A stretch of DNA of 34,315 nucleotides from a virus: positions 1-34,315 of IMG/VR virus record IMGVR_UViG_3300042375_000092; one strand, given 5' to 3'. The notes below the pieces were generated by a model that worked only from the letters and a program-made list of their open reading frames with translations, had not been told where the DNA came from and did no database searches. This document shows, one piece after another, positions 6,718-34,315 of the stretch. The position numbers and the translations under genes are program-made. The first letter of the stretch is position 1. Each line of letters begins with the position of its first letter.

Positions 6718-7503
6718 ATGAGCGCAAATATACTTTTCATATCTGAGAATCTAATTAAAAGCAGAACTGGAATAAGTGATGCTATTGATGGCAAACAATT
6801 AAAGCCACATATTAAAGTAGCGCAAGACCTTTATTTGCAACCTGCTTTGGGAAGTACTTTATACCTACGTTTACAATCAGGAATAGAGGCTGCAAACCTT
6901 TCTAATTTAGAGAAATCTTTATTAGATAATTTTATAACGGATTGTTTGGTTTGGTACACTATGAGTTTATTGCCCTTTGGATTGGGTTATCAATTTTTCA
7001 GTAAGGGGATATTGCAAAAGACAAGCGAAGAAAGTAATGCTCCATCAAGAGCAGATTTAGAGTTGATAGGTAATGAATATAAAAAGACTGCTGAATTTTA
7101 CAAGCAAAGATTAATTAATTATTTAAGAGAGAATTATTTATTATTTTCTGAATACTTTAATCCAGGCAGCGGATTAGATGTTATATTCCCTGAATTAAAA
7201 GCATATACAAGTCCTATTTATTTAGGTAATGTAAATGATGGAGTAAGGGTATTCTCTAACAATGCAACAAGCGGTGGAGCAACAACTATTTATCATACAC
7301 CTGCTGCAGGAGACAGTAGTTTCTCAGTTGGTGGATTAGTTAATAAAGTAGTGTTAATTGCAATGAGGTCAGGATTGGTAAAAGGTATAACAAACTTACC
7401 TACTGCAAATCCTATGTACTTACAAATTGTTGGTAATGTAATTACTTTACCTACTGGGGATGTAACACAAGCAGGAGAATTATTTTCATTCACAATAAGA
7501 TAA
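6718..7503 (+). CDS. Head-tail connector (adaptor) protein with beta-rich C-terminal extension
   Basis: The gene starts directly after the portal stop. The N-terminal part of the 261-residue protein is helical. Its opening (LFISENLIKSRTGISDAIDG) and LYLQPALGSTLYLRLQSGI (about residues 39-57) match DUF6712-like adaptor proteins of Bacteroidota phages, which join the portal to the tail. After about residue 150 the protein changes to a Gly/Thr-rich, beta-type extension (YHTPAAGDSSFSVGGLVN, VITLPTGDVTQAGELF) that looks like an added outer domain rather than connector core. Such extensions might be exposed at the neck, but nothing in the sequence shows a ligand. The position between portal and tail-completion gene supports the call. 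Confidence 0.65.
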   Translation: MSANILFISENLIKSRTGISDAIDGKQLKPHIKVAQDLYLQPALGSTLYLRLQSGIEAANLSNLEKSLLDNFITDCLVWYTMSLLPFGLGYQFFSKGILQKTSEESNAPSRADLELIGNEYKKTAEFYKQRLINYLRENYLLFSEYFNPGSGLDVIFPELKAYTSPIYLGNVNDGVRVFSNNATSGGATTIYHTPAAGDSSFSVGGLVNKVVLIAMRSGLVKGITNLPTANPMYLQIVGNVITLPTGDVTQAGELFSFTIR

Positions 7504-7507
7504 ATTT

Positions 7508-7654
7508 ATGGCTTATAAAAAAGCATTAATTCAAAGAGTTTTATTTTATGACCTACAACCAGTTAATAACAACAATAACAAGTCTGCTGCAAAATCACGA
7601 AATGATAAAAACGGCAAAGTACGCAACCCCGAAAGAGTGGCTACTAAGAGATGA
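7508..7654 (+). CDS. Possible small basic ORF overlapping the tail-completion gene
   Basis: ATG 7508 follows the connector stop after 4 nt and opens a 48-codon frame (MAYKKALIQRVLFYDLQPVN onward, Lys/Arg/Asn-rich) that overlaps the next gene by 107 nt in another frame. The first 15 residues look natural, but the remainder is the second frame of a convincing gene and has simple composition. It may act only as a short leader that carries ribosomes to ATG 7548. No known family is recognised. Confidence 0.25.
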   Translation: MAYKKALIQRVLFYDLQPVNNNNNKSAAKSRNDKNGKVRNPERVATKR

Positions 7655-7979
7655 ACAACCGGTTTATCCGATTGCTTGTTTTTCAATTAATTCAGGTAGT
7701 TTAAATTTAGGTAGGGAACAGATTTACAATGTTCAATTTTTCTTTTTAGATAAGAGTGGTCAAGAGGCTGAATACGAAGAGGATGTAATAAGCGACCAAG
7801 TGCAAATAGCTTCCGATATTCTTAGCTTAATGCGTACAGGTAGAAATAATTATTCAATAGATGATAGCGTAACTTTCAATGCGATATCGGATAAGTACGA
7901 AGATTATTTGGCAGGGGTGGAGTTAACAATTAATATTTCAACACAAAATCAATTTACTGGATGCGACGTGCCATTGTAA
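7548..7979 (+). CDS. Putative tail-completion / neck protein
   Basis: The 143-residue product opens with MTYNQLITTITSLLQNHEMI and continues with a mixed alpha/beta pattern (YPIACFSINSG, EQIYNVQFFFLDKSG). It ends in a short beta strand region (YLAGVELTINIST). The size and pattern fit tail-terminator or completion proteins that cap the tube where it meets the connector. The position right behind the connector gene agrees. It ends inside the first codons of the fibre gene, with a 19-nt overlap. I know of no catalytic motif here. An assignment to a specific family would need a profile search. Confidence 0.5.
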   Translation: MTYNQLITTITSLLQNHEMIKTAKYATPKEWLLRDEQPVYPIACFSINSGSLNLGREQIYNVQFFFLDKSGQEAEYEEDVISDQVQIASDILSLMRTGRNNYSIDDSVTFNAISDKYEDYLAGVELTINISTQNQFTGCDVPL

Positions 7980-10900
7980 CATTATTAGTTTTATTATCTT
8001 TTGGATTGAAAGCGCAGGTTTATCAAGCTATGCCACAGGCGGGATATGGTCCTGTTAAGCGTATGTTATTTGATAGTGTGTTAACTATTCCATTGAATAT
8101 CAATCAGTTAAGAAATATTACAGGTGGAAGGGATGCCGGTCAAATAAGGTATAACGTAACTGATAGTGGCTTGTATGTTTTTAGTGGCTTTCAATGGATT
8201 AAAGCTAACTTAGATAGTACTAATATTTCAAATAGAATTAACGGCAAATTAAATATAAGTGATACGGCTGCAATGCTTTTGCCTTATATGAAATTTATTG
8301 ATACTGTTTCTTTATCCAATAGAATTAATTTAAGGGTTAAATATTCCGATACTGCACAGATGCTTTCGGTTTATTTACGCAAATTAGATACGGCTAGTTT
8401 ATCAGATAGGATTAATAAAAAACAAGACTCAATAACATTAACTACTAACTTTAAAAGCGGTCCTTCTACCTTAGTAGGTGCAACTTTAAATATCCCTAAA
8501 TATAGCGATACATTACAAGATAATTATGTGCCTTATGTCGGAGCGATTAAGGATGTTGATTTAGGTGCTTATCAATTAAATGCAAACGGTATAAAAGCGG
8601 ATTATTTATTACAAGTTAAAAATACTCCCTTTTCCATCACACCCACGAGTGATTATACAAGCATCACTCCAGATAAAACTGGTTTCGTCTTCTATACAAG
8701 TTGGCTTCAAAGTCAAAGTACCTATACTCAATCGAATAGATTTAATTATGCAAATCAGGCTCAGCAAAATAATACAAGGGAATATAATTTACCAGTAAGA
8801 AACGGAACTTTAGCATTAGTAGAAGATACGGTTAACTTATCAAATAGAATTAATTTAAAGGCAGATAAAGCAACTGTTTTAACAATTAACGGAGTGGGTT
8901 ATGATTTAAGTGCAAACAGAACTTGGACTATCCCTACTTTTGATTCTACTTCTATATCAAATAGAATAAATTTAAAACTAAATATAAGCGATACGGCTTC
9001 AATGTTAAGTCCTTATCTTAGGAAAGCGGATACAAGTTCTTTGTCTAATAGGATTGATTTAAGAGTTAAATATAGTGATACTGCAGCAATGCTAAGTCCT
9101 TATTTAAAGAGTGCAGTTACAAGTGTAGGCTTATCTATGCCTGCAGCATTTAACGTTACTAATAGCCCTGTAACAAGCACAGGAACATTAACAGTAACAG
9201 GAGCAGGAACGGCAGCACAATATATTAGAGGCGATGGTCAATTAGCTACTTTGCCATCAGGTGTAAGCGGTGGTAGTTCGGTAGCTTACTATCTAAATGG
9301 TAGTGTTAATCAAGGTACAATAGGTGGAAGCGTTTATTATGAGATGAACAAAACTCCAGTTATTGGTGCAGGTACTGATTTTTCACTAGCAGGGAATGGA
9401 TTAATTTCTCAATTTATTACTGATGTTGCAGACCCAAATAGACTTGAAATTCCTGCCGGTAATTGGAACTTTGAAATTTATATGAGTGCATCTTCTTCAG
9501 GTGGTACTCCTAAATTCTATGTTGAACTACTCAAATATGATGGAACAAATTTTACAAGTATTGCATCATCATCTGCAAATCCTGAAGCAATTACTAACGG
9601 AACTACAATAGATTTATATCTAACTGCTTTGGCAATTCCTCAAACAACTTTACTAGCTACTGATAGACTTGTAATAAGAGTTTACATTGTTAATAGTACA
9701 GGCGGTAGGACAATTACAATGCACACAGAAAATTCACACCTTTGCGAAATCATTACAAACTTTGCCGGTGGAGTTAGTGCGTTAAATGGATTAACTGCAA
9801 ATACTCAATACTTAGCAGTAGGAACAAGTGGCAATGACTTTGCAATTAATAGCTTAACAGATACACATACATTTAATTTACCTACTGCTTCTTCAACTAA
9901 AAGAGGTGCTTTATCAAGTGCTGATTGGAGTACATTTAATGGTAAAATGAATTATAGTGATACTGCTTCTTTGTCTAATAGAATAAATTTAAAATTAAAT
10001 TCTAGTGATACAGTTTCTTTATCTAATCGTATCAATACAAAATTAAATTCTGCTGATACTGCAAGTTTATCTAATCGCATCAATGCAAAAGCGGATGCAC
10101 TAAGCGGAACTACAAACACAGTTGCAAAATTTATTTCAGGAACTACGATAGGAAACAGTAATATTAAAGATGATGGAAGTGTGGTAAGTGTAAGCACTAC
10201 TGCAGGTTCATTCGGTGCTTTACAAGTAGGTAGCTACAATGGTAATATTTTAATGAATACTACCAATACAAATGGTGGTTTAATATTTCAAAATACATCA
10301 TCTTCAAATAAATTATGGGATTTCTCTTCTGATAACAATGATTTAGTTTTTAACGAATCAAATGTTAATCCAGTAATGAAATTAAAAGCAGGTGGCAATG
10401 TAGTAATATCAAATCTTTCAGGTACAGGCACTCGTATGGTAGTGGCAGATGCAAATGGAGTTTTATCTAGTCAAGCAATAAGTGGAGTTGATACAACTTC
10501 TTTAAGTAACCGAATTAATTTAAAATTAAATATAAGTGATACTGCTTCTATGCTTAGCGGATATCAAAGCGCAATTAATTCTAAGCAAGCAGCAATAACA
10601 TTAACAACTACAGGCACAAGTGGAGCAGCAACCTTTAGTTCTAATACTTTAAACATACCACAGTATCAAGCTGCAGGTACTTATGTTACAAGTGTTACAG
10701 GAACTTCTCCAATAGTATCAAGCGGAGGTACTACACCTGCTATTTCTATTCCTGCTGCAACCAGTTCAGTAAATGGATATTTAAGTTCTACTGATTGGAC
10801 AACTTTTAATAATAAATCAAATACTAGCGGAACGGTTACAAGTGTAGCAACAGGTTTAGGATTAAGCGGTGGCACAATTACAACATCAGGAACATTATTA

Positions 10901-12463
10901 GTTGATACTGCTTCTGCATCAATTCTTAGCAGACAAAGGGCAGCTAATACCTATGCAACTACTTCAGCATTAAGTGGATATTTACCATTAACAGGTGGTA
11001 CACTTACAGGTGCTTTGGGTGGGACAAGTGCTACGTTTAGTAGTTCACTTGAAGCAGGAAAATCAGGCTCTTTAACTGTTGGAGATTTATTTGTTGATAA
11101 TCCTAATAAAACATTATATGTAGGAAGGCAATCAGCTACAGGTGGAGATAACACAATTTTTATTGTTAGAAATAGATTAAACACACCATATTTTTATATT
11201 AATCCTTCAAATGATTTTGCTTATTTTAATAATTCTAATGTAGGAATAGGAACTACAACAGATGCAGGATATAAACTAGATGTTAATGGTACAGGAAGGT
11301 TTAGTGGAAATTTAACTACTACTAATTCTATTGCAACTGCATATTCAGCTTCGAATTTATCAGCAGTAGTTGGTCAATATGTAAATAATTTAACGGCAGG
11401 AGGTTTTGCTAATTTAGTGTTTAATGCAGTTGATGCAGGAGGAAGTTCAAATGCTACATCTGCAATTTCAGGAATATCAGAAACTTCAGGTTCTAGAAAT
11501 TCTGCTTTAACTTTTGCAACAAGAGAACAGTCTACAGGTAATATAGTAGAAAGAATGCGTATTACAAGTGGGGGCAATGTAGGAATAGGAACTACAACAG
11601 ATGCAGGATATAAACTAGATGTTAATGGTACAGGAAGATTTGCTAATGTTGTAGATATTCAAGGAACAAGGACACCTCAATTAACTTTATTAAAATTATC
11701 TACTAATACATTGTCATCAGATATTAATGATGAAGTAAGTATTGATTTTGGTAGAGGATTAATGGGTAAATATTCTGGCAGAATTAGTGGTTATTTATCA
11801 AACTTTACTACTTATGATGGTGGATTAAAGTTTTATAGTTCTACAAGTGGAACATTAAATGCAAGTCCATCACTTACCATAGCCTCTACAGGAGCAGCTA
11901 CATTCTCTAGTAGTGTAACGGCAAAAAATGCTTTAATAAGTTGGTCAGCTGCTAGTGCTGCAAATTTATTAATGAACGATTTAAGTGGTAATAGTAAATA
12001 TGAAATTGGATGGGAAGCAAGTAGTAATAACTTTTATATTTATTCTTATGGTGGTGGTGTAAGTGCTTTAAAAATTGCACCAGCTGGAGCGGTTACATTA
12101 AGCAGTCTAGGTACAGGAACAGTTACGGCATCTAGTGGAGTATTATCTACAGTTTCAGATTCATCTTATAAAATAGCAGATGGATTTATTGAAAATGCTT
12201 TGCCAAGTGTAATGAATTTAAAGCCTAGATACTTTTATTGGAAAGACAAAAGCGGTTTAGATACTACAATTAGACAACTTGGATTCTATGCACAAGAAGT
12301 TAATTCAGCAATAGGAGAAGAAGCAGCAAATACACCAAAAGAAAATAGTCCTTGGGGTATTAATGACAGGTCATTAATTGCTTATTTAACAAAGGCTATA
12401 CAAGAATTATCGGTAAAAAACGAAGCATTAATTAAAAGAATAGAAACTTTAGAAAACAAATAA
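7961..12463 (+). CDS. Long tail fibre with S74 intramolecular chaperone and an N-terminal signal peptide
   Basis: The 1,500-residue protein is the largest in the genome. Residues 1-19 (MRRAIVTLLVLLSFGLKAQ) form a typical Bacteroidota signal peptide with cleavage expected before Gln19, which is very unusual for a tail fibre. Then come about ten copies of a DT-SLSNRIN-type unit, often followed by NISDTASMLSPYL, likely trimeric stalk repeats. A beta-sandwich-like domain lies at about residues 447-603 (IPAGNWNFEIYMSASSSGG, KFYVELLKYDGTNF), and repeated NVGIGTTTDAGYKLDVNGTG units follow at about 1,095 and 1,207. The C-terminal about 100 residues are a peptidase S74 chaperone: S1399-D1400 with K1404 (SDSSYK), then LGFYAQEV. 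S74 domains assist trimerisation and then cut themselves off before the serine. It overlaps the upstream gene by 19 nt. If translation began at the next in-frame ATG (codon 24) the signal peptide would be lost. Confidence 0.85.
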   Translation: MRRAIVTLLVLLSFGLKAQVYQAMPQAGYGPVKRMLFDSVLTIPLNINQLRNITGGRDAGQIRYNVTDSGLYVFSGFQWIKANLDSTNISNRINGKLNISDTAAMLLPYMKFIDTVSLSNRINLRVKYSDTAQMLSVYLRKLDTASLSDRINKKQDSITLTTNFKSGPSTLVGATLNIPKYSDTLQDNYVPYVGAIKDVDLGAYQLNANGIKADYLLQVKNTPFSITPTSDYTSITPDKTGFVFYTSWLQSQSTYTQSNRFNYANQAQQNNTREYNLPVRNGTLALVEDTVNLSNRINLKADKATVLTINGVGYDLSANRTWTIPTFDSTSISNRINLKLNISDTASMLSPYLRKADTSSLSNRIDLRVKYSDTAAMLSPYLKSAVTSVGLSMPAAFNVTNSPVTSTGTLTVTGAGTAAQYIRGDGQLATLPSGVSGGSSVAYYLNGSVNQGTIGGSVYYEMNKTPVIGAGTDFSLAGNGLISQFITDVADPNRLEIPAGNWNFEIYMSASSSGGTPKFYVELLKYDGTNFTSIASSSANPEAITNGTTIDLYLTALAIPQTTLLATDRLVIRVYIVNSTGGRTITMHTENSHLCEIITNFAGGVSALNGLTANTQYLAVGTSGNDFAINSLTDTHTFNLPTASSTKRGALSSADWSTFNGKMNYSDTASLSNRINLKLNSSDTVSLSNRINTKLNSADTASLSNRINAKADALSGTTNTVAKFISGTTIGNSNIKDDGSVVSVSTTAGSFGALQVGSYNGNILMNTTNTNGGLIFQNTSSSNKLWDFSSDNNDLVFNESNVNPVMKLKAGGNVVISNLSGTGTRMVVADANGVLSSQAISGVDTTSLSNRINLKLNISDTASMLSGYQSAINSKQAAITLTTTGTSGAATFSSNTLNIPQYQAAGTYVTSVTGTSPIVSSGGTTPAISIPAATSSVNGYLSSTDWTTFNNKSNTSGTVTSVATGLGLSGGTITTSGTLLVDTASASILSRQRAANTYATTSALSGYLPLTGGTLTGALGGTSATFSSSLEAGKSGSLTVGDLFVDNPNKTLYVGRQSATGGDNTIFIVRNRLNTPYFYINPSNDFAYFNNSNVGIGTTTDAGYKLDVNGTGRFSGNLTTTNSIATAYSASNLSAVVGQYVNNLTAGGFANLVFNAVDAGGSSNATSAISGISETSGSRNSALTFATREQSTGNIVERMRITSGGNVGIGTTTDAGYKLDVNGTGRFANVVDIQGTRTPQLTLLKLSTNTLSSDINDEVSIDFGRGLMGKYSGRISGYLSNFTTYDGGLKFYSSTSGTLNASPSLTIASTGAATFSSSVTAKNALISWSAASAANLLMNDLSGNSKYEIGWEASSNNFYIYSYGGGVSALKIAPAGAVTLSSLGTGTVTASSGVLSTVSDSSYKIADGFIENALPSVMNLKPRYFYWKDKSGLDTTIRQLGFYAQEVNSAIGEEAANTPKENSPWGINDRSLIAYLTKAIQELSVKNEALIKRIETLENK
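11237..11298. repeat. 62-bp exact direct repeat in the fibre gene, copy 1
   Basis: These 62 bases recur without change at 11576-11637, 339 nt downstream and in the same frame. They encode NVGIGTTTDAGYKLDVNGTG plus the start of the following codons. Identity at third codon positions suggests recent duplication or gene conversion. Confidence 0.9.
11576..11637. repeat. 62-bp exact direct repeat in the fibre gene, copy 2
   Basis: Second copy of the repeat at 11237-11298. The sequence diverges at once after the repeat (RFSGNL in copy 1, RFANVV in copy 2). Recombination between the copies would delete 339 nt in frame and shorten the fibre by 113 residues. Confidence 0.9.
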
Positions 12464-12464
12464 T

Positions 12465-12998
12465 ATGAAAACTTGGAAAGATATAATAAATTTTGAAGGT
12501 CTTTATAAGATTAGTAGTGATGGAGAAATTGTAAATATTAGAACAAATAAAATATTAGAACCTAATAAAAGTGGTAGATATTTATATTACTCTCTTTCTA
12601 AAAATGCTAAACCTTTATATAGATATTTACATAGAATGATTGCACAATGTTTTATTGAAAATATAGATAATAAACCACAGGTTAATCATATTGATGGAAA
12701 TAGAAGGAATAATAAAATTGAGAACCTTGAATGGGCAACTGCATCTGAAAATATAACTCATGCGCATAAAAATAATTTAATAAAGTGTACGGAAAAAAGA
12801 ATAGAATCGGCTAGAAAATTAGGTAAAACAAGAAATAAATATATTTTATGTACACAAACAGGTGTATTTTATGAAAGTTGCACAGAGGCTTCTAAATTAT
12901 TACTTGGTAAATATAAATCTATTCAATCAGCACAAGCAACATTATCAGCTATGCTATTAGGTAAAATGACAAATAACACATCTTTTATATACGTTTAA
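12465..12998 (+). CDS. Free-standing HNH homing endonuclease (NUMOD4-HNH-NUMOD1 type)
   Basis: The 177-residue protein begins with a NUMOD4-like DNA-binding unit (WKDIINFEGLYKISSDGEI). An HNH_3-type nuclease core follows: LHRMIAQCFIEN, then VNHIDGNRRNNKIENLEW (about residues 67-86), with the His-Asn pairs expected for metal and DNA binding. The C-terminal part (TGVFYESCTEASKLLLGKYK) resembles a NUMOD1 unit. Such enzymes cut an allele lacking the insertion so that their own gene is copied in. It starts 1 nt after the fibre stop codon and ends 10 nt before the next gene. Its placement in the most variable part of the genome is typical. Codon use is as AT-rich as the neighbours. Confidence 0.85.
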   Translation: MKTWKDIINFEGLYKISSDGEIVNIRTNKILEPNKSGRYLYYSLSKNAKPLYRYLHRMIAQCFIENIDNKPQVNHIDGNRRNNKIENLEWATASENITHAHKNNLIKCTEKRIESARKLGKTRNKYILCTQTGVFYESCTEASKLLLGKYKSIQSAQATLSAMLLGKMTNNTSFIYV

Positions 12999-13008
12999 AA
13001 ATCAAATT

Positions 13009-13242
13009 ATGAAATTAAAAACAACATTAATCGCATTATTATTTGCTAGTAAATCATTCTCACAAAATGCAGGAGATAGCTTAATTGTTAAATTTGACAC
13101 AAGTGTCTTTAAAAACGTAATTGCAATAATACAAAAGCAATTAGATTCAAAAGCAGCAAGTGATTATATCTTAGAAGCATTAAGTCATTACGAATTAATA
13201 GCGATTAAGCCTAAAGAAATAGAAACACCTAAAAAGAAGTAA
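13009..13242 (+). CDS. Small secreted protein of unknown function
   Basis: The 77-residue product starts with MKLKTTLIALLFASKSFSQ, a clear signal peptide with cleavage expected before Gln19, as in the Bacteroidota pattern where Gln becomes the new N-terminus. The mature part of about 59 residues is mostly helical and charged (FKNVIAIIQKQLDSKAASDY) and ends in a Lys/Pro/Glu tail (ETPKKK). I do not recognise a family. It lies between the homing endonuclease and another secreted protein, upstream of the lysis genes. A periplasmic role, for example with the fibre or during lysis, is a guess from location only. Confidence 0.65.
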   Translation: MKLKTTLIALLFASKSFSQNAGDSLIVKFDTSVFKNVIAIIQKQLDSKAASDYILEALSHYELIAIKPKEIETPKKK

Positions 13243-13243
13243 T

Positions 13244-13615
13244 ATGAAAAAAATAATCTTATCAGTTTTAGTGTTGGCTAGTTTGTCAACGAAAGCGCAA
13301 ATGTTTAGAAATAGTAGTGATACTGCAATCATTGGAAACGATACCATCTACTATCAAAAAGGTGGAATCTTAATTAAGCCAGTTATAGTTAACTATCAAG
13401 GCGAATTTGCTTGGTCATTAAGTTGGACTGCTAACAACCTTTCAAGTAACGGAGAAGGGTGTAATACCTATGTAACATTAAGAGGTAAAAACAACAACCA
13501 GTTAGCTGATTTTAATTGCTATATACCGGCATCAGTAGTTGCAGTTTGGGGAATTAGTAATGCTCCTATAGATTCTACAATCTTATCTCAATATCCAAGA
13601 TTTGTAAAACAATAG
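13244..13615 (+). CDS. Small secreted protein of unknown function
   Basis: The 123-residue protein has the signal peptide MKKIILSVLVLASLSTKAQ with cleavage expected before Gln19. The mature part is beta-rich and contains GNDTIYYQKGGILIKPVIVN and FAWSLSWTANNLSSNGEGCN. Two cysteines (about residues 73 and 92) could form a disulphide in the periplasm. It starts 1 nt after the previous stop codon, so the two secreted proteins are probably made together. No family is recognised. Possible roles include a fibre partner, a superinfection-exclusion factor or a lysis accessory; the sequence does not choose between them. Confidence 0.65.
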   Translation: MKKIILSVLVLASLSTKAQMFRNSSDTAIIGNDTIYYQKGGILIKPVIVNYQGEFAWSLSWTANNLSSNGEGCNTYVTLRGKNNNQLADFNCYIPASVVAVWGISNAPIDSTILSQYPRFVKQ

Positions 13616-13776: not shown

Positions 13777-13945
13777 GACAAGTATTGCCGGATTATTGGC
13801 AGGTGTACCTTTCATAGTTGATGCTTTATTAGAGGCATATAATGCAGGTGCTTTCACAGGCAAAAGCGGTTTACAATTAGTAGCTGCTATTGGAGTAGTA
13901 TTATTAGGTCTATACTCAAAAGACCACGATGTTAAGGGTTTATAG
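13754..13945 (+). CDS. Putative holin (small membrane protein)
   Basis: The product is 63 residues from ATG 13754, or 60 from ATG 13763 (MKNFKTSI), which is equally possible. It has two hydrophobic stretches: SIAGLLAGVPFIVDALLEAY (about residues 10-29) and LQLVAAIGVVLLGLY (about 40-54), separated by a Gly/Ala/Lys turn (GAFTGKSG). A short polar end follows. Small two-segment proteins of this kind are common next to lysozymes in Bacteroidota phages and are usually regarded as holins. It ends inside the next gene with a 17-nt overlap. The assignment comes from topology and position. Confidence 0.6.
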   Translation: MIKMKNFKTSIAGLLAGVPFIVDALLEAYNAGAFTGKSGLQLVAAIGVVLLGLYSKDHDVKGL

Positions 13946-14432
13946 GATATTAGTAGCAGCTTTCTTATTAGGAGGCTGCTACACCCAAAATAAGGCGGTA
14001 AAACAAGTTAATAAGGCATTGGGCAGCTATCCTGAAATAGTGGCTAAAATCGCCTTAGATTCATTTCCTTGCAATGTTATCAAAGTAGACACAATCATCA
14101 CTCACTTTGATACAACAATCGAAGTAATTTACCCTCACTTTGATACAATCTTGTCCCAAATAGATACAATTTATGGGACGAAAAAAGTGTACGTTAAATT
14201 ACCGTACAAAACAATTTATATAACAAAGTCAATAGAATCAACTGCTAAGTTAACTATCTTAAATGCTAGATTTGATTCATTAACAAAAGTTACTACTTCT
14301 ATTCAGAAGTCTAACGAGGATTTAACCAGTAAGGTAGGCAGAAAAAATAAAGTTATTTATTGGCTAATTGCTTTTTTAATTGGATTATCCGTACCTTACT
14401 TAATTAAATTAATAAAAATATTAGATATATGA
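13929..14432 (+). CDS. Putative unimolecular spanin (lipoprotein with C-terminal membrane helix)
   Basis: The 167-residue protein has an N-terminal lipoprotein signal with lipobox LLGGC and lipidated Cys17 (LVAAFLLGGC). A long periplasmic-type stretch follows with repeated DT units (VDTIITHFDTTIEVI, HFDTILSQIDTIYG) and a helical part. A C-terminal membrane helix lies at about residues 142-160 (VIYWLIAFLIGLSVPYL) with a basic end. An outer-membrane lipid anchor plus an inner-membrane helix in one chain is the layout of u-spanins such as T1 gp11, which fuse the two membranes at the end of lysis. It stands between the holin candidate and the lysozyme and overlaps both by a few bases. An o-spanin/i-spanin pair is not seen. 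Confidence 0.72.
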   Translation: MLRVYRILVAAFLLGGCYTQNKAVKQVNKALGSYPEIVAKIALDSFPCNVIKVDTIITHFDTTIEVIYPHFDTILSQIDTIYGTKKVYVKLPYKTIYITKSIESTAKLTILNARFDSLTKVTTSIQKSNEDLTSKVGRKNKVIYWLIAFLIGLSVPYLIKLIKILDI

Positions 14433-14878
14433 CACCATCGAATGAATTTTACAGGTTATTAAAATTATTTGAGGGTTGTAAATTAGATGCTTATAGATGT
14501 CCTGCAAATGTGGTTACTATTGGGTATGGTAGTGTAATGGATTTAAAAGGCAATTCAATAATAATGGGCAGTAAGATAAGCCTTGCAGAAGCGGAAGTAT
14601 TATTAAAAAATGAGGTAGATAAGAAAGCGAAATACCTAAATAAAGAACTAGGAAAGACAGAGGTTACACAGAATCAATTTGATGCTTTATTATTATTTCA
14701 ATATAATTGTGGTAGTGCAGCATTAACTAGAAGCACGTTATTTAAAAAAGTAAAAGCAAATCCTAACGATAAGACTATTGAAGCTGAATTTATGAGATGG
14801 GATAAAGCAGGTGGTAAACAATTAAAAGGTTTAACAATTAGAAGAGCAACCGAATCAAAACTATACTTCACTAAATAA
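14429..14878 (+). CDS. Endolysin: GH24 (T4-type) lysozyme
   Basis: The 149-residue protein is a T4-like muramidase that cuts the glycan chain of peptidoglycan. The catalytic region reads FEGCKLDAYRCPANVVTIGY: Glu15, Cys24 and Thr30 have the same spacing as Glu11, Asp20 and Thr26 of T4 lysozyme. Cys in place of Asp is common in phage GH24 enzymes, and T4 lysozyme is known to tolerate Cys there. Further family marks are QFDALLLFQYNCGSAAL and GLTIRRATESKLY near the end. There is no signal peptide, so release needs a holin. It overlaps the spanin gene by 4 nt (ATGA). Confidence 0.92.
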   Translation: MTPSNEFYRLLKLFEGCKLDAYRCPANVVTIGYGSVMDLKGNSIIMGSKISLAEAEVLLKNEVDKKAKYLNKELGKTEVTQNQFDALLLFQYNCGSAALTRSTLFKKVKANPNDKTIEAEFMRWDKAGGKQLKGLTIRRATESKLYFTK

Positions 14879-30044: not shown

Positions 30045-30121
30045 AAGTAATTCATTTTTTAAATGACCTACTTTATTTAAAATTAAAAATAGAAAATGAG
30101 CATAGGCAAAAGTCAAATTGA
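29403..30121 (+). CDS. Tail assembly chaperone, -1 frameshift (GT-type) product
   Basis: Reading 0-frame to Phe151 and slipping back one base on TTTTTTT (29849-29855) joins 151 residues to an 88-residue -1 frame that starts LHFIQRINAG and ends at TGA 30119-30121, for a product of 239 residues. The new end has an acidic Gly/Ser/Glu linker (GKRDDKEGDSEGESGEDT) and then KHFGWLYNAKMVADFEGIPV and WNLKVIHFLNDLLYLKLK, a well-formed amphipathic pattern with no ATG near its start. It overlaps the next gene by 26 nt, in keeping with the genome's compact style. The G/GT arrangement is the hallmark of siphophage tail chaperones. Without this frame the gene would be followed by an unusual 51-nt gap. Confidence 0.6.
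29848..29856 (+). promoter_or_regulatory. T9 slippery tract, candidate -1 frameshift site
   Basis: In 0-frame the site reads GTT TTT TTT TAC; the heptamer T-TTT-TTT (29849-29855) fits X-XXY-YYZ. Slippage gives TTA CAC next. Polymerase slippage on T9 could have the same effect. Confidence 0.6.
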
Positions 30122-30734
30122 CGCTTTAATTAAAGGTAAATTAGGTAAAACAGATTTCTCTATTGAAGATACTGCTAATTTAGATTTAAATAATCCGACA
30201 TTGGCATTGTTTTTTGAATATGCTAAAATATTTCAAGAAGAAGTTAGAGAACAAATTAAAAATAAAAATATAACTTCTAGCGGTAAACTTGCAGACAATA
30301 TTGATGTGGTTGCAAATGATAAAGGTACTGGCATTTACATTAGTATGATTGATTATTATGACTTTGTAAACAAAGGTGTTAAAGGTGTTGATTATCAAGA
30401 CAATGCCCCAAATAGTCCATACCAATATGAAACTTATAAAATGCCTAAATCCGCAAGGGATGGATTAAAAAAATATATAAATAGTGGTAAAGCAAGTATA
30501 AGGGTAGTAAATAAAAAGAAAACAACAATAGGAGCAGAAAAAAAGAAAGTATCGTTAATAGATTTAAAGGTTAATCAATTAGTTTATAATATTAAAAAGT
30601 ACGGTATAAAAACGACAAGTTATTTAGACAATGCGTTGAATGAGGTATTACCTAAACTAAATGAAGATATGCTTAATTTAATAGGAAGGACAATAGTAAT
30701 ACAAATAGGGCAACCTAAAAAGAAAAAGAAATGA
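30096..30734 (+). CDS. HK97-gp10-like head-tail joining protein (putative)
   Basis: The 212-residue protein has an N-terminal helical segment (FEYAKIFQEEVREQIKNKNI) followed by SGKLADNIDVVANDKGTGIY and MIDYYDFVNKGVKGVDYQDN, the pattern of HK97 gp10-like proteins that act at the head-tail or tail-end joint. The C-terminal half is basic (VNKKKTTIGAEKKKVSL, QPKKKKK). The location between the tail chaperone and the baseplate candidates supports a tail role. It starts inside the -1 frame of the chaperone and overlaps the next gene by 4 nt. Confidence 0.55.
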   Translation: MSIGKSQIDALIKGKLGKTDFSIEDTANLDLNNPTLALFFEYAKIFQEEVREQIKNKNITSSGKLADNIDVVANDKGTGIYISMIDYYDFVNKGVKGVDYQDNAPNSPYQYETYKMPKSARDGLKKYINSGKASIRVVNKKKTTIGAEKKKVSLIDLKVNQLVYNIKKYGIKTTSYLDNALNEVLPKLNEDMLNLIGRTIVIQIGQPKKKKK

Positions 30735-33952: not shown

Positions 33953-34315
33953 ATGGCAAAACAAGTAATAGCATTTGAGATAACTTCCGATTCAAAACAA
34001 GCAGAAGCATCGGTAGGTAGTTTTAAGAAACAATTAAGGGAAGCTAATAATGAGTTACTCAATATGTCGTCTCAATTTGGAGAAACATCTAAAGAGGCAA
34101 TTAATGCAGCAAAGAAAGTAGCCGGTCTTAAGGATGCCATTGGTGATGCCAAAGCATTAGCTGAAACATTTAACCCTGATAAAAAGTTTGTCGCATTAGG
34201 TGGTGCATTACAAGGTGCTACTGCAGGATTCAGCGCATTACAAGGAGCGATAGGTTTATTTGGAGATGAGAATAAAGAATTAGAAAAGACTTTATTAAAA
34301 GTTCAAAGTTCAATG
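33953..34315 (+). CDS. Tail tape measure protein, N-terminal part (continues at base 1)
   Basis: ATG 33953 starts 1 nt after the stop codon of the upstream tail gene. The product begins MAKQVIAFEITSDSKQAEAS and continues with SFKKQLREANNELLNMSSQF, a helical, Gln/Lys/Glu-rich start usual in tape measures. It reads through the window's end. Codon 78 (Lys, 34184) corresponds to base 1, so the gene resumes at 1 and ends at 1452. The last 132 bases duplicate the start of the window. Confidence 0.9.
   Translation, partial: MAKQVIAFEITSDSKQAEASVGSFKKQLREANNELLNMSSQFGETSKEAINAAKKVAGLKDAIGDAKALAETFNPDKKFVALGGALQGATAGFSALQGAIGLFGDENKELEKTLLKVQSSM
34184..34315. repeat. Terminal repeat, right copy (contig overlap)
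   Basis: Copy of 1-132 with one mismatch (T at 34310 for G at 127). It marks the circular overlap; one copy should be removed to obtain the 34,183-bp circle. Confidence 0.9.

Follow-up and report, generated by a model that had tools for sequence, protein, structure and literature searches.

A Tail Fibre with a Predicted Export Signal in a Large Family of Uncultured Tailed Phages

Introduction

Tailed-phage virions normally assemble in the cytoplasm, and a tail fibre that appears to begin with a signal peptide therefore raises the question of whether the signal is genuine and, if so, where such a fibre would mature. A fibre of this kind is encoded by an uncultured virus genome from IMG/VR (record IMGVR_UViG_3300042375_000092), the 34,315 nucleotides of which were analysed in full and are referred to here as the window. 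An initial annotation had described three gene products, the fibre and two small proteins, with Bacteroidota-type signal peptides that expose Gln at the new N-terminus, and had offered capture from a host surface protein, masking of receptors by exported fibre, and a downstream start at codon 24 as possible explanations.

Results

Genome and Late Gene Block

The window belongs to a tailed phage and carries terminase, portal, capsid, protease, tail and replication genes, and no integrase was found among the genes scanned. The record is classed as linear. Because its bases 1-126 recur at 34184-34309, near its end, the genome is probably complete and circularly closed, with a putative circular form of ~34.18 kb in which the tape-measure gene spans the join. 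Distant matches of the portal to Nonlabens and Tenacibaculum phages, together with the Q-rule signals described below, suggest a Bacteroidota host for the phage family. All genes of the block lie on one strand, with the fibre gene placed between the structural genes and the lysis genes and its first 19 nt shared with the last connector gene, as follows.

6718-7979, + strand: head-tail connector (DUF6712) and a 143-aa gene, directly 5' of the fibre gene, which served as unbiased anchors
7961-12463, + strand: fibre gene, 1500 aa, with predicted signal peptide 1-18, mature protein from Gln19, S74 and C-terminal coiled coil
7961-8014, + strand: predicted Sec/SPase I (Q-rule) signal peptide of the fibre, MRRAIVTLLVLLSFGLKA, with the predicted cut before Gln19
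8015-8254, + strand: conserved, phage-specific mature N-terminal domain of the fibre, QVYQxMPQxGY..., from alignments and an AF2 model
10961-12463, + strand: hypervariable C-terminal ~500 aa of the fibre, the putative receptor-binding tip, from comparison with the related phage G001
12465-12998, + strand: HNH/NUMOD4 endonuclease, between the fibre and 77-aa genes
13009-13242, + strand: 77-aa protein, predicted signal peptide 1-18, MKLKTTLIALLFASKSFS, Gln19
13244-13615, + strand: 123-aa protein, predicted signal peptide 1-18, MKKIILSVLVLASLSTKA, Gln19
13929-14432, + strand: 167-aa spanin-like lipoprotein, lipobox LGGC17, by sequence
14429-14878, + strand: phage lysozyme (endolysin)

The signal-bearing genes do lie beside lysis genes, as had been stated, with the spanin-like lipoprotein (13929) and the endolysin (14429) downstream. 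The lipoprotein has an N-terminal lipobox and a C-terminal hydrophobic, transmembrane-like stretch and, given its place beside the endolysin, is u-spanin-like; it matched no curated family, though it is widespread beside these fibres, and the assignment is by sequence features. The fibre, 77-aa and 123-aa genes share one block but are not immediately adjacent, as the HNH gene separates the first from the second. Among close relatives only the window has an endonuclease at this position. The HNH gene adjoins the exchanged fibre tip, and the 77-aa signal peptide of the window is atypical within its family, which together suggest local recombination around 12465-12998.

Q-Rule Signals in the Window

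The Q-rule itself is established (PMC5837995). Our rule-based scan looked for an N-terminal K/R, a hydrophobic core, a small residue at -1, a permissive residue at -3 and Gln at +1, and across the ORFs of the whole 34.3-kb window, 52 on the plus strand and 17 on the minus strand, it returned Q-rule signals in exactly three, those of the fibre and of the 77- and 123-aa proteins, and one lipoprotein signal besides, at 13929. The three ORFs and N-termini described earlier are thus as reported, and are the only ones. In the window and in all readable relatives the fibre fits the profile of a Bacteroidetes Q-rule signal peptidase I substrate, with a positive n-region, a hydrophobic core, suitable -1 and -3 residues and Gln at +1.

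Conservation of the Fibre Signal

Relatives were gathered by three routes, through the fibre N-terminus, the 123-aa protein and the connector (DUF6712), the last of which is independent of the fibre; some of the IMG/VR contigs are fragments. All 69 readable connector-anchored fibre slots encode a predicted signal peptide with the mature motif Q-[VIT]-Y-Q-x-x-P-Q after it (66 by rule and three by eye, with 11 further contigs ending too early), and the comparison of start sites among homologs, which had been suggested as a check, thus upholds the signal in all readable relatives. The DNA pattern for YQxMPQxGY alone gave at least 81 matches in IMG/VR, in the loci returned. Among the 81 matches listed, six were short chance frames and one was incomplete. 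The other 74, all genuine and readable, without exception have the signal immediately before the motif; the rule recognised it in 63 and inspection by eye in 11, some contigs in this set being counted under more than one locus. About a dozen genuine signals, many with a second Gln near the cut, were overlooked by the rule-based scan and read by eye.

The codons of the signal are constrained at the level of the protein. In a wider set of 123 distinct N-termini, in which Gln at +1 was fixed by the search pattern while -1 and -3 were free, position -1 is G/A/S/T and position -3 is S/L/V/G/T/A/C, fully compatible with cleavage, and -1 is likewise restricted to G/A/S/T in 70 non-redundant sequences. 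In the latter, T occupies the second position of core codons -15 to -7 at 77-97% while the first and third positions vary freely, which points to selection on hydrophobic residues and not on DNA. The signal core is conserved as hydrophobicity only, and the mature N-terminus is near invariant. Conservation among relatives excludes a chance origin, and we conclude that the predicted fibre signal is neither chance nor a start-site artefact.

The proposed start at codon 24, which would leave the 'signal' untranslated, draws on the presence of Met24 in 67/70 non-redundant fibres. Some relatives have Leu or Tyr there, however, and codon 24 is therefore not the start; moreover, the codons upstream are constrained as protein and the Q-V-Y-Q that precedes Met24 is near invariant, so that we give this explanation virtually no weight. 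A second alternative takes advantage of the fact that the cut site is a prediction from sequence, and would make the hydrophobic N-terminus an uncleaved membrane anchor or tail-docking segment. We consider this very unlikely, as the segment varies in length among relatives but is short (18-20 residues) with a permissive -3, a small -1 and Gln at +1, the same features are found on the two neighbouring small proteins, and a spacer variant (L245) with three extra residues between Gln and YQ nonetheless keeps Gln at the cut. Thirdly, a slow or leaky signal might divide the fibre between a cytoplasmic pool destined for virions and an exported pool used for masking or release, which would reconcile a conserved signal with cytoplasmic assembly. 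The conserved motif begins at the first residue of the cleavage product, though, which suggests that the cut form is functional, and no second start codon is fully conserved; such dual use is in our view clearly unlikely, if less so than an uncleaved anchor.

Architecture and Variability of the Fibre

A Peptidase_S74 domain (PF13884) is recognised at fibre residues 1410-1453 with 25.2 bits against a curated cut-off of 22, a weak match that is above threshold, and the SDxxxK motif is kept as SDSSYK at residue 1399; S74 exceeded the Pfam cut-off in two of five genomes tested. At the other end of the protein, the first ~43 residues of the mature fibre are extended in a weak AF2 model (mean pLDDT 67) and may represent a docking peptide. 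A fold search with the N-domain model gave meaningful matches only to its own homologues from uncultured phages (A0A6J5S6V3 and A0A6J7WPC0).

Comparison with the near-identical phage G001, the closest relative, shows which part of the fibre changes. The last 500 residues have 0-44 identical residues per 100 (the last five bins), whereas the N-terminal 900 mostly have at least 85 per 100 and the other structural genes are 92-99% identical, so that, the fibre apart, no gene of that block is hypervariable. This is the receptor-binding pattern of a conserved N-terminal part and an exchanged C-terminal part among conserved structural genes. The 382- and 690-aa tail proteins were found in 18/18 relatives and evolve vertically. 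Since the fibre alone is hypervariable and the other tail proteins are vertical, its most likely role is that of receptor-binding protein, and it would carry host specificity. In comparisons with phages more distant than G001, a second, milder exchange zone comprises a 212-aa gene (30096-30734) and the C-terminal part of the tape-measure protein (1-1452), which are ~50-55% identical in several relatives in which the neighbouring genes are ~80-98% identical.

A receptor-binding fibre with an export signal need not be destined, or mainly destined, for the virion. Phage T5 produces Llp, a small exported lipoprotein that masks the receptor, and by analogy the exported fibre might act late, masking receptors in the periplasm or at the surface or soaking up receptor fragments, and so spare the progeny from loss to the dying cell and its remains. 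The export signal in all relatives read and the hypervariable, receptor-binding-like tip are consistent with this, and a late position next to the lysis genes is better suited to shielding the progeny than to a role in exclusion early in infection. Against it, the virion would need a second variable receptor binder, for which no candidate was seen, as the 382- and 690-aa proteins are vertical and not hypervariable between near-identical phages, and no way for the fibre to cross the outer membrane is apparent. Masking is a possible explanation and the main rival to a virion fibre matured in the periplasm, but on balance we think it rather unlikely.

Origin of the Fibre

Capture of the fibre from a host surface protein, the first of the explanations offered initially, found no support. 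The N-terminal domain has no relative in 84,980 prokaryote genomes, a search limited by its exact-peptide pre-filter, and the S74 region gave one weak match, to a Clostridiaceae MAG, in a search that was likewise pattern-limited. Nor do cultured phage records hold a relative of the N-domain, the 123-aa protein or the connector, and the family has no isolate among them.

Small Secreted Neighbours

Conservation is strong in the 123-aa protein, in which Cys73 and Cys92 are invariant; its structure model (pLDDT 55.8) is too poor for the fold to be read. The 77-aa protein is less conserved, and its variation does not follow the fibre tip (Mantel p 0.41), which argues against a fibre-specific chaperone. 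Neither occurs outside the near clade. In some distant phages the slot is filled by unrelated secreted proteins, either of 144-167 aa and without a family or of 289-293 aa with matches to PF09206 at ~1e-8. Most distant phages have no such gene but keep the spanin-like lipoprotein, which is encoded 0.5-2.6 kb beyond the fibre gene on its downstream side. The PF09206-matching proteins lie downstream of the fibre at 7610-8476 in L137 and 7437-8315 in L157; we take this family to be the arabinofuranosidase B catalytic domain, possibly of lectin-like fold. As the small proteins are clade-limited and the slot is varied or empty in distant phages, it is the fibre signal that is constant and not the putative helpers. 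The three-gene periplasmic module suggested by the initial annotation is therefore supported only in part, the fibre signal being family-wide and the 77- and 123-aa proteins limited to the near clade.

Two cysteine columns within the first 90 residues of the mature fibre are both occupied in 72 sequences, including L137-type fibres, neither in 44, the fibre of the window among them, and singly in none. Parsimony gives four changes at each column, and because only one of these is on a supported branch the co-occurrence is at most suggestive. Together with the cysteine pair of the 123-aa protein it would fit an oxidising compartment.

Discussion

We propose that the 1500-aa protein is a receptor-binding fibre made as a true Sec preprotein, a conclusion that we regard as highly probable. 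What follows export is more tentative. Host signal peptidase I would cut the precursor, probably expressed late, before Gln19, and the exposed Gln would probably be cyclised by the host to pyroglutamate. In the periplasm the mature fibre may trimerise and the S74 chaperone act, apart from head and tail assembly in the cytoplasm, with the 77- and 123-aa proteins as clade-specific periplasmic helpers of the late step. The mature N-terminus, conserved and modelled as extended, could then dock on the tail and complete the virion once holin, endolysin and spanin have opened the envelope. This whole reading, from export through periplasmic maturation to docking at lysis, is the most likely of those considered and has in our judgement a little less than an even chance of being correct. 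The more general notion of a two-compartment virion, in which capsid and tail made in the cytoplasm and a Sec-exported fibre held in the periplasm are joined at cell opening, we put forward a little more cautiously still.

The export reading draws on the presence of the signal in every readable connector-anchored slot, on the near-invariant mature N-terminus that starts at the predicted cut, and on the late-gene setting of the fibre, with a connector gene overlapping its start and lysis genes coming after it. Against it stand the cytoplasmic assembly of tailed-phage virions and the lack of precedent, as no tailed-phage fibre with a signal peptide was found in the open literature searched. Further arguments against are a phage of similar gene order whose fibre has no signal (P12024S, below), the weak N-domain model, and a cysteine pairing that rests on about four changes, one of them supported, and is absent from the fibre of the window.

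Assembly of tailed phages is held to be wholly cytoplasmic, a rule that a lineage-wide Sec-preprotein fibre would break. The phages described here form a large uncultured family of tailed phages, with Bacteroidota as probable hosts, that make the fibre as an export-signal precursor, which hints at maturation outside the cytoplasm, and this fibre family is a testable case for two-compartment virion assembly or for late secreted receptor masking. There is also a consequence for annotation, in that such signal-bearing fibre genes may be mistaken for host surface proteins; in one study of phage variable proteins the absence of signal peptides was counted as support for phage origin (PMC6199706).

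Of the phages compared, P12024S (Nonlabens phage, Inhavirus) resembles the window in its order of portal, connectors, fibre, small gene and lysis genes, and its portal is distantly similar (27.6% over half). Its similarly placed fibre, gp10, differs in that it lacks a signal peptide and begins with an unrelated N-terminus, and the same rule-based scan found no Q-rule protein in its genome. Fibre export is thus neither needed for the shared genome plan nor part of it. In five further Bacteroidota phages no tail gene carried a clear Q-rule signal. The fibre of the window shares with S74 endosialidase-type tail fibres a C-terminal S74 with SDxxxK, a repetitive fibrous body and a variable tip, to which its family adds a signal peptide and a mature N-terminus of a different kind; to our knowledge the known phage S74 fibres are all cytoplasmic. 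The likeness to T5 Llp is that of an exported phage protein possibly acting on a receptor around lysis, but Llp is a small lipoprotein and the protein described here a receptor-binding fibre. The coat proteins of filamentous phages, which have Sec signal peptides and assemble in the envelope, resemble the fibre as virion proteins with Sec signals, whereas the phage of the window is tailed, with terminase, portal and capsid genes. The Q-rule proteins encoded by Porphyromonas gingivalis phages, the products of five prophage genes of unknown function, may according to their authors modify the host outer membrane (PMC10367356). Those proteins, like the ones described here, are phage-encoded and have a Bacteroidota-type signal that exposes Gln, but in the family of the window the Q-rule protein is a probable receptor-binding fibre, present in every relative read and encoded among the late genes.
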